From NCBI RefSeq assembly GCF_017873555.1, contig NZ_JAGGKE010000003.1:186001-250000 (forward strand): DNA of 64,000 bases, written 5' to 3'. Within the stretch, counting starts at the first letter, position 1; each line of letters starts with the position of its first letter. The position numbers and the translations under genes were made by a program. Below are positions 17,981 to 35,973 of the stretch, in pieces. Below the pieces are notes generated by a model. The model made no database searches, was not told the DNA's origin, and worked only from the letters and a program-made list of their open reading frames with translations. This DNA is from Halorubrum trapanicum. GTDB lineage: Archaea > Halobacteriota > Halobacteria > Halobacteriales > Haloferacaceae.

Positions 17981-18042
17981 GAAATCCCCATCGCTATCGA
18001 TAACGCCCACCGGGCAGGCCGGGGGCCGACGCAACACAACCA

Positions 18043-18636
18043 ATGTTCGAAACCATACTGGACGAGGAAGAGCGCGGTCAAGTGGGGATCGGGACCCTCA
18101 TCGTGTTCATCGCGATGGTGCTGGTGGCGGCGATCGCCGCCGGCGTCCTGATCAACACTGCCGGGTTCCTCCAGACGCAGGCGGAAGCAACGGGCGAAGA
18201 AAGTACAGCGCAGGTGAGCGAGCGGCTGAATGTCATCAGCCAATCCGGAGTTGTCTCCGATGACGCCGCAGGTTCCGGTGAGAAAGGTATCGGATCCCTT
18301 GAGTTTGTCGTCGCATCAGCGGCCGGTGCGGGCAACGTCGATCTCGACGAGGTGACGGTCGAACTAGTCGGAACCTCCGGGCAAGAAACGTTCCAGCTCG
18401 ACGAGAGTCCGCCGGCGACTAATGAGATATTCACCAAGGCTGGTGACAGCAACGTTCTGACAGATAATAGCGATCGTGCTGAGGTCACGGTCGATCTTGA
18501 ATCGATACCCTACGCGCTCACCGAGGGTGATTCCCTCACGGTGACGTTCACGACTTCGGCCGGCGCGTCGACGACGACCGAAGTCCGCGTTCCGACCACG
18601 CTGGTCGGTGATAACGGCGATTCGGTGAGGCTATAA
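18043..18636 (+). CDS. arlA1: Archaellin 1, 197 aa
   Basis: A filament subunit of the archaellum. It has a class III signal peptide: a short charged leader ending in Gly12, then [20 protein letters not shown], the conserved hydrophobic N-terminal helix. Cleavage by the prepilin peptidase is expected after Gly12. The C-terminal domain is beta-rich and acidic and ends GDNGDSVRL, similar to archaellin 2. N-x-S/T sequons are few. The stop is followed 2 bp later by the second archaellin, so the two are co-transcribed. Confidence 0.94.
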
Positions 18637-18638
18637 CA

Positions 18639-19889
18639 ATGTTCGAATTCATCACTAACGACGACCGCGGCCAGGTCGGTATCGGCACGCTCATCGTGTT
18701 CATCGCGATGGTGCTGGTCGCCGCCATCGCCGCAGGCGTCCTGATCAACACGGCTGGATTCCTCCAGTCACAGGCGGAATCAACCGGTCAAGAGAGTACG
18801 GACCTTGTGTCCGAGCGGATCGAAGTGACGAGCTCCGTCGGTATCGTTGGCCCTAGCGGTGCTGCCGATAGTCCATCCACGTTGAGCGAGGTTCGTGTGA
18901 CGGCAGTCGGCGCACCCGGTGCGGATGACATTGATTTGACTGACACGACGATTCAGGCTGTTGGGCCTGGTGGGCAAGAGAATCTCGTGTTTACTGACAA
19001 TACTGTTGACGACAGTGTCTCAGTTCCCAGTGCTGACACCGTCGTGGTTTCAACCCAAATTGCTGAGGGGCAACAGACCGTTGAGGTCGGAGTGGGCAGC
19101 TTCAGTAGTTACAGTGGTAGTGGTGAGACTCTAGAATTAACTGATGGTTCTAATACAGTCACAAAAGAGATTACGTCTACTGAGGCAGACAGTACGTTCA
19201 CTCTCGACATTAGTGAGCTAGACACGTCGACGACTGGGTCTGCAGCCATTACAACGAGTATCACTGGTGGAACTACCCTCACTGAGCCGAGCGATATCGA
19301 TATTGTAAGCACTACTCCTGACCGTTCAGTCTCGGTGCCTAGTTCTGACACCGTTGTGGTTTCAAGCGAAATTGCTGAAGGGCAACAGACTGTTGAGGTC
19401 GGAGTGGGCACCTTCACTAACTACGGTGGTAGTGGTGAGACTCTAGAATTAACCGATGGTTCTAGCACAGTCACGAAAGAGATTACGTCTACTGAGGCAG
19501 ACAGTACGTTCACTCTCGACATTAGCGAGCTAGACACATCGACGACTGGGTCTGCAGCCATTACAACGAGTATCACTGGTGGAACTACCCTCACTGAGCC
19601 GAGCGATATCGATATTGTACCTAACAGGCAGGATATCAGCAAACTCGGTCCCAATGAGTTTGCTGTCGGATCTGATGGTTCCTTTGTTTCGGATCCCGTT
19701 CTCGACGGAGAGAACCAGTACACGATTCTGCTGAATCCGTCATCCGGAGCCTTCGATGACACTGACGGCGCCTTCGGAGAGGGCGACGACGCGACACTCG
19801 ACATCGTCTCGCCTGCCGGCGCGACGACGCAGGTCGAACTGACCGCGCCCGACCTCTTCAGCGAGGAGGGCGAAGCAGTTCGCCTCTAA
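18639..19889 (+). CDS. arlA2: Archaellin 2 with tandem 104-residue repeats, 416 aa
   Basis: The N-terminus repeats the archaellin class III signal (leader ending Gly11, then [20 protein letters not shown]). The outer domain is enlarged by two near-identical repeats with a period of 312 bp, beginning at 19014 and 19326 (each starting SVSVPS.DTVVVS and ending [11 protein letters not shown]). The repeat region uses AT-richer codons (act, tct, gtt, aca) than surrounding genes, suggesting a foreign or fast-evolving surface segment. The C-terminus (EEGEAVRL) matches archaellin 1. The repeats should lie on the filament outside. Confidence 0.94.
19014..19617 (+). repeat. Two tandem 312-bp repeats inside archaellin 2
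   Basis: Copy 1 spans 19014-19325 and copy 2 runs from 19326 to about 19617 (slightly shorter). They are in frame and very similar at DNA as well as protein level, for example the 'actgaggcagacagtacg' segment at 19179 and 19491. Such similarity points to a recent duplication or homogenisation, able to expand or contract by recombination. Confidence 0.9.
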
Positions 19890-21432: not shown

Positions 21433-23763
21433 ATGACATCTAAATCCGACGACAATACGGACCGGCCCGAGCGGTCAACGGCGGCCGCAGACAGCGGTGA
21501 ACCCGCCGCAGAAAGTGCCGACGGAATCCTTTCCTTTCGCCCTCGACGGGCCGGAACCGTCCGGGTTGGACTGACTATCGTCTCCGTCCTCTTCGTCTTG
21601 TTCGCTGTCGCGGCCGCTGGTCCGGCAGCGGGATTCTCGATGGGTGACTCCGCGTCGTCGGACAACGCCCGAGGGACCACCGCCGTCACCGCCGATCTGA
21701 CGGATCGGACCGGTCCGGCGGATCGCCACGAACTCAGCGGTTCGTTCTCCCGTCCGACGTACACCGGTATCGCGGGTGACCCCGTTGATATCAGGTACAC
21801 GGCCAGCAACTCCAACGGAAGCGCGTACCTGTTGATCGGTGGGAATCGACTTACCGACACGGGACAGTCTATCGGGTACACCGACGTCGTGAAACTGGAC
21901 GGAGATTTTGACGGAACGATCAACACTCGACTTCTCGGAACCGACGAGGGGACCGCCGCCAGTTGCCGCGAGGCCGACTGTGACCTCGAGTTCCGCGACG
22001 AGGACGGTAATCTCCTTGGAGACGATCTCGACTCGCTTCGGAGCGCGACCAGTGCCGGTGGCCTCGCTCGCCCGCTCGTCCCCCAACGATACCGACTCGC
22101 GATCACCAACGGGACCTTCGTCGTCGAGGATCCGGGAGTCGTGACCCCGGTCGAGACTGCCGCCTCGTCGGACCTCCTGTTGACGAAACCGACGTTCCAC
22201 GACGAAATTGAGGTGTTCACCACTGCTGACCCGGATGATCTCGAAGGCGGAGGCGGCGGCGAATCCCTTAGTGCCCTCGAACAGAACGGCCTCGACCGCA
22301 CTGCGGTGACGAAAGGTGACCGCGTCGTCCTCGGCTTCGAATCGACCGGTATCTGGGGGGCGCTGTCGCACTTCGCCGACGAAGAAGGCGAAGATACGAT
22401 TCAGGCCGGTCAAGAGGTCAACCACTCCGTCCTGACAAACATTTTAGATGCTAAAGAAGGTGTCACCCTCCGAGTTCGACAGACGAACCCGGGCATGAAC
22501 GAGCCACGGTCGATACTCGACCTCGCCGACGCCGACCCCGAGGATGTCACTCTTCTCCTCGCCGACGCGGAGGAACTGGAGACCGGTGACTCGGCGCCGG
22601 GGCGGTTCTACCTCGTCTTGGACACGAGCGACGGAGGGGCGTTCACCGAGGCTCCGGAACCGGGCGACGAGTACGCCGTCGAGTTTGCCTTGGAGGGTAC
22701 TGAGGGACAACGGTACGCGTTCGCCGACGACAGCGGGGAGCCGCCAGCGGCGTTCGAACCGAAACACGAAGCGCCCGAACAGTTCCCGTACTGGGAGACC
22801 GCCGACGGAACCGTGAGCGCGGAGGCGTCGTTTTCGATCCAGGAGCGGTACTTCGAGTACGACCACGTCACCGACGACGGCGAGCTCCTCGTCGAGGCCT
22901 CGGGCGGAGAGGTGACCGGGACGACAACGATACTACCGCCGATCGAAATGTCCGCCACCTTCGTCGACGACAAGCGCGACGAGCAGTTCCGGTCGGAGTC
23001 GCAGTTGGAGGTCTCCGACGGGAACTTCTCTATCGGCGCCGATCTCGGGGACGCCGATCCGGGGACCCGTCTGAACTACGAGCTGTACGAGGGGACGACG
23101 CTCCGCGACAGCCGCACAGTGGTCGTCGTTGACGACACCGACAACCCGGATCGGCTCGCGATCGAGAGCGTCCCCGAGAACGTCACCGTCGCGAAGGGTG
23201 GGAACCTCTCCGCGCTCGGGATCGAAGTCCGCAACGCCGGCGGACTGGAAGGAGAGGGAACGCTCGCGCTCGATGTCGACGACGGGAACCTGACGACCGC
23301 TCGCGAACTGACGCTGTCGTCGAACGAGTCGCGCACCCTCGGCTTCCCGTCTGCGACCACCCGTCTCGACCCCGGTGAGTACCCCTTCACGGTCACGCTC
23401 GACGAGGACCGTCGGAACGGAACGCTGATCGTCGCGGAGAACCCAGCCAGGACGACGATCGACGACGATGACGGCGAGGGCGACGGAAGCGACACCGACG
23501 GCTCGGCGGATTCTTCAAATACCGACCAGAACTCCACAGACACCGACCCGAACTCTACTGACGCTGACCAGAACTCTACTGACGCTGACTCAACGGGGTC
23601 CACAAACCCCGACGGGAACTCGTCGGACCCGGTCGGTGACTCCGGCGGTCGCGACGGCGAGGACGAGTCGCCGACCTTCCTCCCGTTCGGGATCGGCACC
23701 CGGGAGACGTTCGTCGGCACGGTCGTCGTCGGTGTGATTCACATCCTCGGCCACTGGGTGTAA
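21433..23763 (+). CDS. Large N-glycosylated cell-surface protein, 776 aa
   Basis: An N-terminal hydrophobic segment (VRVGLTIVSVLFVLFAVAAAG, residues about 44-64) follows a charged, disordered head. The extracellular part begins SFSRPTYTGIAGDPVDIRYT, a pattern I associate with haloarchaeal BGTF/S-layer-like surface domains. It has about a dozen N-x-S/T sequons, a CARDB-like beta domain near 590-690, an acidic Ser/Thr/Asn-rich stalk with DxNST repeats, and a final hydrophobic tail (TFVGTVVVGVIHILGHWV). No PGF-CTERM motif is visible. It lies within the motility region; an adhesin or filament-sheath role is speculative. Confidence 0.75.
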   Translation: MTSKSDDNTDRPERSTAAADSGEPAAESADGILSFRPRRAGTVRVGLTIVSVLFVLFAVAAAGPAAGFSMGDSASSDNARGTTAVTADLTDRTGPADRHELSGSFSRPTYTGIAGDPVDIRYTASNSNGSAYLLIGGNRLTDTGQSIGYTDVVKLDGDFDGTINTRLLGTDEGTAASCREADCDLEFRDEDGNLLGDDLDSLRSATSAGGLARPLVPQRYRLAITNGTFVVEDPGVVTPVETAASSDLLLTKPTFHDEIEVFTTADPDDLEGGGGGESLSALEQNGLDRTAVTKGDRVVLGFESTGIWGALSHFADEEGEDTIQAGQEVNHSVLTNILDAKEGVTLRVRQTNPGMNEPRSILDLADADPEDVTLLLADAEELETGDSAPGRFYLVLDTSDGGAFTEAPEPGDEYAVEFALEGTEGQRYAFADDSGEPPAAFEPKHEAPEQFPYWETADGTVSAEASFSIQERYFEYDHVTDDGELLVEASGGEVTGTTTILPPIEMSATFVDDKRDEQFRSESQLEVSDGNFSIGADLGDADPGTRLNYELYEGTTLRDSRTVVVVDDTDNPDRLAIESVPENVTVAKGGNLSALGIEVRNAGGLEGEGTLALDVDDGNLTTARELTLSSNESRTLGFPSATTRLDPGEYPFTVTLDEDRRNGTLIVAENPARTTIDDDDGEGDGSDTDGSADSSNTDQNSTDTDPNSTDADQNSTDADSTGSTNPDGNSSDPVGDSGGRDGEDESPTFLPFGIGTRETFVGTVVVGVIHILGHWV

Positions 23764-26207: not shown

Positions 26208-28151
26208 ATGGGCCTCGAACTACCGGTGTGGGGAGCTCCAACCGCCGCCTGGGCAGTCGCCACGCTGGGGCTCGTCGGTGCGAGCGTCCTCGACAGGTTC
26301 CTCGACGACGACGGATCCGACGACGACGGTTCCGGTGGTATGGGTGGCGACGACGACCCCTTCGGCGGCGACATGGGCGGCGGAGGGATGGGCGGTGGCG
26401 GCGGTGGCGGCGGCGGGATGGGAGGTGGCGGCGGCGACGGTTTCGACGACTTCGACGGGATGGACGAGTGGGACGACGAGTTCGACGAGGGCGGCGGCGG
26501 CGGTGGCGGCGGTGCCGCCACCGACGAGCTGGAAAACCGGCTCGACGAGCTGGAAAACGAGGTCGCCTCGCTCTCTTCGACCGTCTCGACGGTCCGGTCG
26601 GAAAACGAGGAGATCTCCGCCGCGGTCGACGACATCGAGGAGGACGTCCGTAACCTCCTCGACATCTACGAGATGGTCACCCGCGGCATCAATCCCTTCG
26701 TCGACGACGGCGGCGGCTTCGACAGCGTCGAGGGCGGCGGCGAGGGGTCGTTCGGCATCTTCGACGACGACGAGGGCGGCGAGGAGGAGGACCTCGACGA
26801 GGACGTCGCGAACGCGGACGCGGACGGGTTCTTCGACGACGACCTCCTCGACGAGGAGGAGGCGGACGGTTTCGACGACGAAGCGGACGACGAGTTCGAC
26901 GACCTCGACGATGATCTCGACGGCGACGACGAGTTCGACGACCTCGACGACGACGAGTTCGATGACCTCGACGACGACTTCGAGGAACTGGACGACGACA
27001 GCACGGACGACGCCGCGTCCGAGACCGAAACGGCGGACGACGGAGACGACATGAACGACGATGGAAAGAGCTTCAGCGAACTGAAAGAAGAGTACGACTC
27101 CGGGGAGGCCGACTGGGCCGAGGAGGGCGACGACGCGGACGACGACCCGTTCGAGGACGGGGACGACTCGTTCGCCGACCCCGGCGACGAAACGGGCTCG
27201 TTCGACGACGAGACCGCCGACGACGGCTTCGGGGGCGACGACCTCGGGGGCGGCGTCGAGGACGACGGCTTCGACGAACCGGCGGACCCCGAGCCGGCGG
27301 CCGACCCCGAACCGGCGGGCGCACCCGACCCCGCGCCCGACCGACGGCCCGGCGGCGACCCCGCCGAGGCGTCCGGCGGCTTCGAGTACGTCGGCGAGGA
27401 CGACCTCTCGGGCGGGAGCGGCCGCGGCAAGCCGTACCTCACCGAACTCCCGGGCGACTACGTCGGCGACCTCCTCGTGATGGAGTGGCTGGAGTTCCTC
27501 GTCTCCGAGAGCGACGTCACCGACGCGGTGCGTGCGATCAACTACTACGAGCGGATCGAGTGGATCGGTCCCGACGCCGCGGCGCGGCTCCGGGACTTCC
27601 TCTCCGGGTTCGGCACGATCGACCGCAACCTCGTCGATCGGCCGGGCACCGACCGGCTCGTCCGCGAGCACCACACCCGCAGCCTCCGGTACGTGACCCA
27701 GCTCAACGGCACCAGCAGCCATACGGTGCTCTTGGACCGCTGGGACGACCTAGCCGGCGGATCGCTCGTCGGCGGCCCCGTCGGCGGTCGTCGCGGCGGG
27801 CGGGACAATTCCGGACGCAACGGGCGTAACAACCGCAACGAGCGCAACAACCGCAACGGCCGCGACGGCCGCACCGACCGCAACGAGCGGCCGCCTGCGG
27901 ACCGGAACGGCCACGACGCGTCCGGGCGCAGCGACGCGCCCGACGCCCGCGAGCGACGCGCGAACGGCGCGGACCACGCCGACGACGCGGCGGATCGCGG
28001 CGACGCGCGACCCGAGGCCGACGCGGACCGCCGCGACGGTCACCGCGACGACCGGCGCGACCGGAACGGTTCCACCCGGCCGATGAACGACCCGAATCCC
28101 CGTTCCGACCGCGCCGATCCGGCCGACGGAGGGTGGGGAGATGGGCGTTAG
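26208..28151 (+). CDS. arlCE: Archaellum protein ArlCE (FlaC/FlaE fusion) with extended low-complexity regions, 647 aa
   Basis: The protein links the chemotaxis system to the archaellum motor. After an N-terminal hydrophobic segment and Gly/Met/Asp-rich repeats comes a FlaC coiled coil (LENRLDELENEVASLSSTV to NLLDIYEMVTRGINPFVD, about residues 107-165). A long highly acidic segment (repeats of DEFDDLDDD) leads to the FlaD/E domain (KPYLTELPGDYVGDLLVMEWLEFLV, about 410-510). The C-terminal ~130 residues are Asn/Arg/Asp-rich and disordered. It overlaps arlF by 11 bp. The low-complexity parts are longer than the folded parts. Confidence 0.92.
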   Translation: MGLELPVWGAPTAAWAVATLGLVGASVLDRFLDDDGSDDDGSGGMGGDDDPFGGDMGGGGMGGGGGGGGGMGGGGGDGFDDFDGMDEWDDEFDEGGGGGGGGAATDELENRLDELENEVASLSSTVSTVRSENEEISAAVDDIEEDVRNLLDIYEMVTRGINPFVDDGGGFDSVEGGGEGSFGIFDDDEGGEEEDLDEDVANADADGFFDDDLLDEEEADGFDDEADDEFDDLDDDLDGDDEFDDLDDDEFDDLDDDFEELDDDSTDDAASETETADDGDDMNDDGKSFSELKEEYDSGEADWAEEGDDADDDPFEDGDDSFADPGDETGSFDDETADDGFGGDDLGGGVEDDGFDEPADPEPAADPEPAGAPDPAPDRRPGGDPAEASGGFEYVGEDDLSGGSGRGKPYLTELPGDYVGDLLVMEWLEFLVSESDVTDAVRAINYYERIEWIGPDAAARLRDFLSGFGTIDRNLVDRPGTDRLVREHHTRSLRYVTQLNGTSSHTVLLDRWDDLAGGSLVGGPVGGRRGGRDNSGRNGRNNRNERNNRNGRDGRTDRNERPPADRNGHDASGRSDAPDARERRANGADHADDAADRGDARPEADADRRDGHRDDRRDRNGSTRPMNDPNPRSDRADPADGGWGDGR

Positions 28152-35280: not shown

Positions 35281-35973
35281 ATGTCCGAGGCTCAGACCGT
35301 TCAGCTGTCGTACGACGACGGTGCACGAGCGGTCGAACTCGCGCGGGAAGCGGTCGAGTCGTTCGTCCAACACGGACAACGCGAACAACCCGGAAGCATG
35401 CGCGAGGCGTTCTACGCCCGCACCGGCGCCTTCGTTCGCCTCCAGTCGACCCGCGGACGCGGCCGCCTCCGCGGCTGCGCCGGCGCGTGGGAGACCTCCG
35501 ACCAGCTCGGCCACGCCATCGTCGAGGCCGCCATCAAGGCGGCGTCCGACGACTCCTGCGGCTCCGAGGTGGAGCCGAAGGAGCTGGACAACATCACCGT
35601 CTCCGTGTTCGTCGTCTCGAACACCGTCCTCACGAACGACCCGCTCGAAGACCTCGAAATCGGCACCCACGGCGTCGCCGTCGACAGCGGCAACGCCCAC
35701 GGCTGGCTCTACCCGACGGTCCCCGTCGAGAACGGCTGGTCCGGCGCCGAGTTCCTCTCGCGCGCCTGCCGGAAGGCGAAGCTCTCGCCCACCGCCTGGC
35801 AGGAGGAGGACACGATGGTGACGCTCATCGAGGGGCAGGTGTTCCGAGAGCGCGCCTGCCGGAAGGCGAAGCTCTCGCCCACCGCCTGGCAGGAGGAGGA
35901 CACGATGGTGACGCTCATCGAGGGGCAGGTGTTCCGAGAGCGCGCCGACGGCGGCGCCGTCGAGGAGCTGTAG
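35281..35973 (+). CDS. AMMECR1/TIGR00296 family protein with internal duplication, 230 aa
   Basis: The AMMECR1 domain (RGRLRGCAGAWE near residue 60, with the conserved CxG) spans most of the protein; archaeal members are conserved but of uncertain function. Near the C-terminus a 30-residue segment (RACRKAKLSP to GQVFRE) occurs twice in tandem with identical DNA. The normal family length is about 200 residues, so one copy is extra. The reading frame is kept and the protein ends normally (AVEEL). Divergent from rnpB, with a ~100-bp shared upstream region. Confidence 0.9.
   Translation: MSEAQTVQLSYDDGARAVELAREAVESFVQHGQREQPGSMREAFYARTGAFVRLQSTRGRGRLRGCAGAWETSDQLGHAIVEAAIKAASDDSCGSEVEPKELDNITVSVFVVSNTVLTNDPLEDLEIGTHGVAVDSGNAHGWLYPTVPVENGWSGAEFLSRACRKAKLSPTAWQEEDTMVTLIEGQVFRERACRKAKLSPTAWQEEDTMVTLIEGQVFRERADGGAVEEL
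35761..35940 (+). repeat. Perfect tandem 90-bp duplication in the AMMECR1 gene
   Basis: Copies 35761-35850 and 35851-35940 are identical over all 90 bases and in frame. With no divergence, the event is very recent, or it is an assembly artefact. Confidence 0.95.

Follow-up and report, generated by a model that had tools for sequence, protein, structure and literature searches.

Two near-identical modules in an enlarged FlaB2 archaellin of Halorubrum: exchange of the archaellin operon and homogenisation within the gene

The second archaellin gene of a Halorubrum trapanicum operon encodes a filament subunit with two nearly identical units in its middle, embedded in DNA poorer in GC than its surroundings, and this raises the question of where the units came from and what they contribute to the filament. 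The analysis was performed on a 64,000-nucleotide stretch of contig NZ_JAGGKE010000003.1 (the window). It contains flaB1 (18043..18636, + strand), encoding archaellin 1 of 197 aa, and flaB2 (18639..19889, + strand), encoding archaellin 2 of 416 aa. Both proteins matched the Arch_flagellin family PF01917 (E value, 1.1e-34 and 3.3e-27, respectively) and the class III signal domain TIGR02537; for FlaB2 the scores were 96.3 bits (curated cut-off, 29.5) and 42.1 bits (cut-off, 20), respectively. The archaellins are followed by genes for DUF7500, a BGTF surface-domain protein, CheY, FlaC/DE, FlaG, and FlaH (KaiC-type), and the archaellum genes CheY, FlaC/DE, FlaG, and FlaH all lie within about 10 kb downstream of flaB2. 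The FlaC/E protein (26208-28151) carries low-complexity acidic Asp/Glu repeats at 26885-26999, between its two domains.

The two archaellin genes are separated by the two bases CA (TAA-CA-ATG at 18634-18641). Enlarged FlaB2 proteins of Halorubrum described in the available part of an earlier report likewise belong to a flaB1-flaB2 operon with a CA spacer, which is typical of the genus, and some are noted to have central inserts, as in the window gene; the sizes given there span 201-456 aa for FlaB2 and 187-210 aa for FlaB1 (Pyatibratov et al., 2020, PMC7349177). That part of the report gives sizes and a few domain notes, and within it no tandem modules, homogenisation, or sequon pattern are described. 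The window gene is the second of the pair and is placed with enlarged FlaB2 by the tree discussed below; it encodes an enlarged-type Halorubrum FlaB2.

Two tandem units of 104 codons each, a count taken from one assembly without reads in which identical further units could be collapsed, follow each other in frame in flaB2 with a period of 312 bp and no indels. Repeat alignment places unit 1 at 18998..19309 and unit 2 at 19310..19621, both on the + strand and 312 bp long. The direct copies 18998-19297 and 19310-19609 (300 nt, spacing 312) align without gaps and are 90% identical. Tandem Repeats Finder reported 19017-19619 (period 312, 1.9 copies, 93% matches, no indels) with a score of 1066, far above the others of its 45 rows for the window. 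A separate perfect tandem repeat of 90 bp (2.1 copies, 100% identity) was observed at 35760-35946. At the protein level, residues 124-223 and 228-327 of FlaB2 are alike at 91 of 100 positions. A preliminary description, made from the letters alone, had reported two near-identical 104-residue repeats in archaellin 2; all three alignments agree with it, and its coordinates, 19014-19617, were correct within about 20 bp.

The units interrupt an otherwise conserved protein. The N-terminal core, residues 1-118 (18639..18992, + strand), has invariant alignment columns and comprises the class III signal peptide, the filament helix, and the first strands of the globular domain; over residues ~1-125, matches within the genus are mostly 70-81% identical. 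The conserved C-terminal core (19632..19889, + strand) starts with NEFAVGSDG in the alignment. The insert is located in the archaellin globular domain, between the strand ENLVF (residues 114-118) and NEFAV.

A single unit was modelled with eight strands at a pLDDT of 74, the value for unit 2, and strands were also present in the models for unit 1. Searched against known structures, the unit model gave a best Z of 7.0, to a generic beta-sandwich, and no Foldseek E value under 0.001; Ig, FN3, filamin, and adhesin-type beta-sandwiches were matched, none of them specifically. In Pfam the units resembled MdcG, C5_CUB, and DUF5746 weakly and below the cut-offs, which was taken as chance. Each unit is modelled as an Ig/FN3-like beta-sandwich within a loop of the archaellin domain. 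Because the full-length FlaB2 model was poor (mean pLDDT, 55.5; helix at residues 15-48), the exposure of the modules was judged from the position of the insert and the known archaellin architecture; in the Halobacterium filament the globular face of the archaellin points outward (PMC11239922). The filament would therefore bear a second layer of protein outside its normal core. As the preliminary description proposed, the units form an enlarged domain, which is probably exposed. The archaellum of Halobacterium salinarum, 9eq7, has the same core sequence and fold as FlaB2 (phmmer E value, 2e-27), but its archaellin has 193 residues, lacks extra modules, and is N-glycosylated (PMC11239922). Two PDB "flagellin" chains, 9v96 (463 aa) and 9v95 (454 aa), combine an FlaB2-like N-terminal core with a long Thr/Ser-rich middle, which aligns only weakly with that of the window protein and in which no internal tandem repeat was demonstrated.

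To place the window gene within the genus, archaellin loci were taken from almost all of 52 Halorubrum genomes, one genome per species. FlaB2 sizes fall into steps of ~205-243 aa (no module), 309-344 aa (one insert), and 404-422 aa (two units). Enlarged FlaB2 numbered 18 among the 52 genomes. In a tree of the conserved core built with the insert left out, one of several trees that were mostly quick searches, all 18 fell into one clade (SH-aLRT 96), so the enlargement has a single, old origin and was passed down within one FlaB2 lineage. Six of the seven two-unit proteins group together (support 88), and that of G011 stands apart. The preliminary description would have been contradicted if all relatives had a conserved two-repeat structure and ordinary codon usage; instead, 7 of the 52 genomes have two units, and the unusual codons are shared. 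The single-insert FlaB2 at loci L009, L011, L012, and L033 seem to represent two insert families, one of ~105 aa related to the window units and one longer.

The archaellin genes and their surroundings have different relatives. In the FlaB1 tree, the window genome was united with five sister genomes, namely G003 (Hrr. alkaliphilum), G018, G021 (Hrr. persicum), G041 (Hrr. sp. CBA1125), and G051 (Hrr. yunnanense), with support of 99/97 and in every bootstrap tree. The 407-aa FlaB2 of Hrr. persicum listed in PMC7349177 belongs to this group. The six-genome group was rejected by MetZ, encoded ~5 kb upstream (AU p 5.9e-6), and by AglB, encoded on another contig (AU p 4e-35). Trees of these single-gene markers, which may themselves recombine, served for the species relations and place the window genome near G010, G029 (Hrr. 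sodomense), G043, G048, and G050. Sliding identity changes along the DNA in the same sense. In the flanks (15.2-17.5 kb and 23.8-24.8 kb), identity to Hrr. sodomense is ~90-98% and exceeds that to the other species in nearly every stretch. Across flaB1-flaB2, the sodomense sequence is mostly unalignable, and yunnanense and persicum reach ~75-91%. The switch from a closest relative of the Hrr. sodomense kind to one of the Hrr. yunnanense/persicum kind, seen in sliding identity and trees, delimits a replaced archaellin operon at 18000..19860. At 20.6-23.2 kb, identity is mostly 80-92% to yunnanense versus 69-82% to sodomense; the DNA of the BGTF surface-domain protein (21433-23763, 776 aa) is mostly nearer to the former.

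Because the swap took place across species and at the operon's normal site, it is the operon, and not the module alone, that counts as transferred. Recombination is known to be frequent among Halobacteria, including Halorubrum (PMC3990103). A related pattern is that of homeocassettes, divergent cassettes in equivalent positions, whose versions (homeoalleles), described for Hrr. ezzemoulense, are swapped between relatives and include surface components (PMC11078007). Divergent alleles at one position that conflict with other genes, one mark of a homeocassette, were found at flaB1-flaB2. That study does not mention archaellins, and the present comparison used one genome per species.

A second layer of recombination is seen in the units themselves. 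Among the five sister genes, first modules are 30-59% alike between genes, and a first module is 20-29% alike to its own second. In the same alignment the window units are 87% alike to each other and at most 32% to any other module. Against the old, different pairs of the sisters, this near-identity implies that one module replaced the other or that the array was rebuilt from one, and the homogenisation in the window gene is local and recent. The unit pair of G011 is 48-52% alike, a lesser degree of homogenisation. That the units recombine, as the preliminary description supposed, is borne out by this contrast (87-91% here versus 20-29% in the five sisters).

The differences between the two units are not evenly spread. 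Of 29 nucleotide differences, 2 fall in the last 137 nt (hypergeometric P 5e-6). The 5' part has a dS of 0.35 and a dN of 0.09, and the 3' part has a dS of 0.06 and a dN of 0. Because synonymous sites behave in the same way, the pattern is better explained by a second exchange tract than by selection. This patchy identity marks 19171..19307 in unit 1 and its partner 19483..19619 in unit 2 (both + strand) as the tract of the most recent exchange, and the 3' half of the units was probably overwritten later than the first homogenisation.

Taken together, the following history is proposed. A single loop of the archaellin domain that faces outward would hold two Ig/FN3-like modules of 104 residues. 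The flaB1-flaB2 genes, together with some adjacent surface-protein DNA, would have been replaced from a Hrr. yunnanense/persicum-like lineage by homologous recombination through conserved flanks and gene ends; the gene of the BGTF protein was possibly co-exchanged. After the operon swap, unequal crossing-over or gene conversion within the gene would have copied one module over the other, and the 3' half would have been overwritten once more at a later time. The most likely benefit would be that the exposed filament surface is changed, in the way that swapped homeoalleles alter surfaces in other haloarchaea, while the helix and core are conserved, so that the filament still works. We assign this combined account, from enlarged FlaB2 through operon swap and module homogenisation to surface diversification, a probability of roughly 0.75. 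The modules, the lineage, the homogenisation, and the operon exchange are its demonstrated parts; for its functional part, surface diversification as the benefit, the odds are closer to even. Immune evasion as a function has no basis, because such an organism has no known immune host. Evasion of archaellum-specific viruses, suggested for archaellins in PMC7349177, is a candidate function compatible with exchangeable surfaces.

Surface diversification of this sort is known, and the window gene adds an example rather than a new system. The hypervariable D2/D3 outer domains of bacterial flagellins likewise pair a conserved core with a mid-chain outer region that varies and can be exchanged, but these proteins are not homologous to archaellins and differ in fold and export route (PMC7018530). 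The value of the present case is that one gene displays two layers of recombination diversifying the filament surface, an interspecies operon swap and an intragenic homogenisation of modules.

Other explanations of the repeat were weighed against this account. The preliminary description read the AT-rich DNA as the mark of a domain acquired by transfer, and the codon usage is indeed unlike that of the neighbours: the units have ~49% GC and 45% GC3, compared with 68.7% GC for the window and a GC3 of about 88-96% in most neighbouring genes. The lowered GC3 nevertheless begins before the units, with 55% at residues 61-118 compared with 78% over the initial 60 codons, and extends beyond them, with 67% in the last 86 codons, which indicates a gradient and no sharp insert boundary. 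A drop from the first 60 codons to the middle occurs in all 18 enlarged FlaB2 (mean GC3, 80% to 53%), among which that of the window gene, 33.5 points, ranks seventh. Low GC3 characterises the variable region and does not point to a newly acquired foreign segment, and AT content was rejected as evidence of one. Recent acquisition from a phage, a plasmid, or another genus could still draw on the sister genes, in which no module is a close relative of the units; against it stand the single clade of enlarged FlaB2 and the failure to find unit-like sequences in phages, plasmids, or IMG/VR. A unit profile run on 293 genomes of the order, insensitive enough to miss the related single unit of G007, found two Halorubrum genomes and no other genera. 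We consider such an origin very unlikely. The transfer claimed in the preliminary description therefore holds for the operon, through the tree conflict and the identity switch, but not for a recent foreign domain. A contingency locus, in which the tandem repeat switches rapidly among one, two, or three units per population, would be favoured by the high identity of the units, which promotes unequal crossing-over, by FlaB2 lengths from ~310 to 420 aa across the genus, and by lengths of 203 to 423 aa among Hrr. ezzemoulense strains (PMC7349177). It is nonetheless rather improbable, as the different lengths observed so far track different sequence lineages and not the repeat number of one unit, and 31 differences between the copies imply a turnover that is not extremely fast. 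Comparably doubtful is an adhesin role in binding surfaces, minerals, biofilm matrix, or other cells. Among the structural matches are Ig-like domains from bacterial adhesins and biofilms, and Table A1 of PMC7349177 lists for another Halorubrum FlaB2 an insert that is AidA-like and has "probable adhesive properties", both weak pointers; the matches are generic to beta-sandwiches, and Pfam gave no carbohydrate-binding or adhesin family.

The units might instead replace an N-glycan coat, sequon-free filaments having acquired protein modules that maintain their solubility and separation. Neither FlaB1, counted after its signal region, nor FlaB2 of the window contains an N-x-S/T sequon, where shuffled sequences would give ~3.6 for the pair; yet AglB is present in this genome, as in the other sequon-free genomes checked, and the downstream BGTF surface protein has 13 sequons. 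Halobacterium filaments bundle when their glycan is shortened (PMC11239922). Sequons are absent from 13 of 18 enlarged FlaB2 and from 2 of 34 others (Fisher 1e-6), but this association is no proof of glycan substitution, because the enlargement arose once and the cases are not independent. Five enlarged FlaB2 have sequons, up to 12, and other genera have sequon-free archaellins of ~185-230 aa without extra modules. The single-origin tree and these small archaellins led us to downgrade glycan replacement as the main explanation, and we regard it as unlikely. FlaB1 and FlaB2 agreed in sequon state in 49 of 49 genus operons (34 both with, 15 both without), a concordance nested in relatedness; the 3 to 5 independent pairs, with the too divergent FlaB1 of G030 left out, were concordant on supported branches and too few for significance, and they lend the substitution no support. 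Most multi-gene archaellin operons of other genera are also all-or-none, and a few are mixed. A wider proposal, that the haloarchaeal archaellum switches as a whole, FlaB1 with FlaB2, between N-glycosylated and sequon-free states and that Ig-like modules swapped and homogenised by recombination replace the glycan in Halorubrum, is slightly less likely still. All-or-none pairs would offer a direct test of the purpose of the archaellum glycan coat and of protein stand-ins for it. Two archaellin operons of different type were observed in G018 (L004, L037), with FlaB2 of 404 aa and 12 sequons and FlaB2 of 334 aa and none, a reading to be taken with caution given a reported contamination of 7%. G001 (L052) also has two archaellin operons; its second FlaB2, of 335 aa, carries a different insert, and all four genes are sequon-free.
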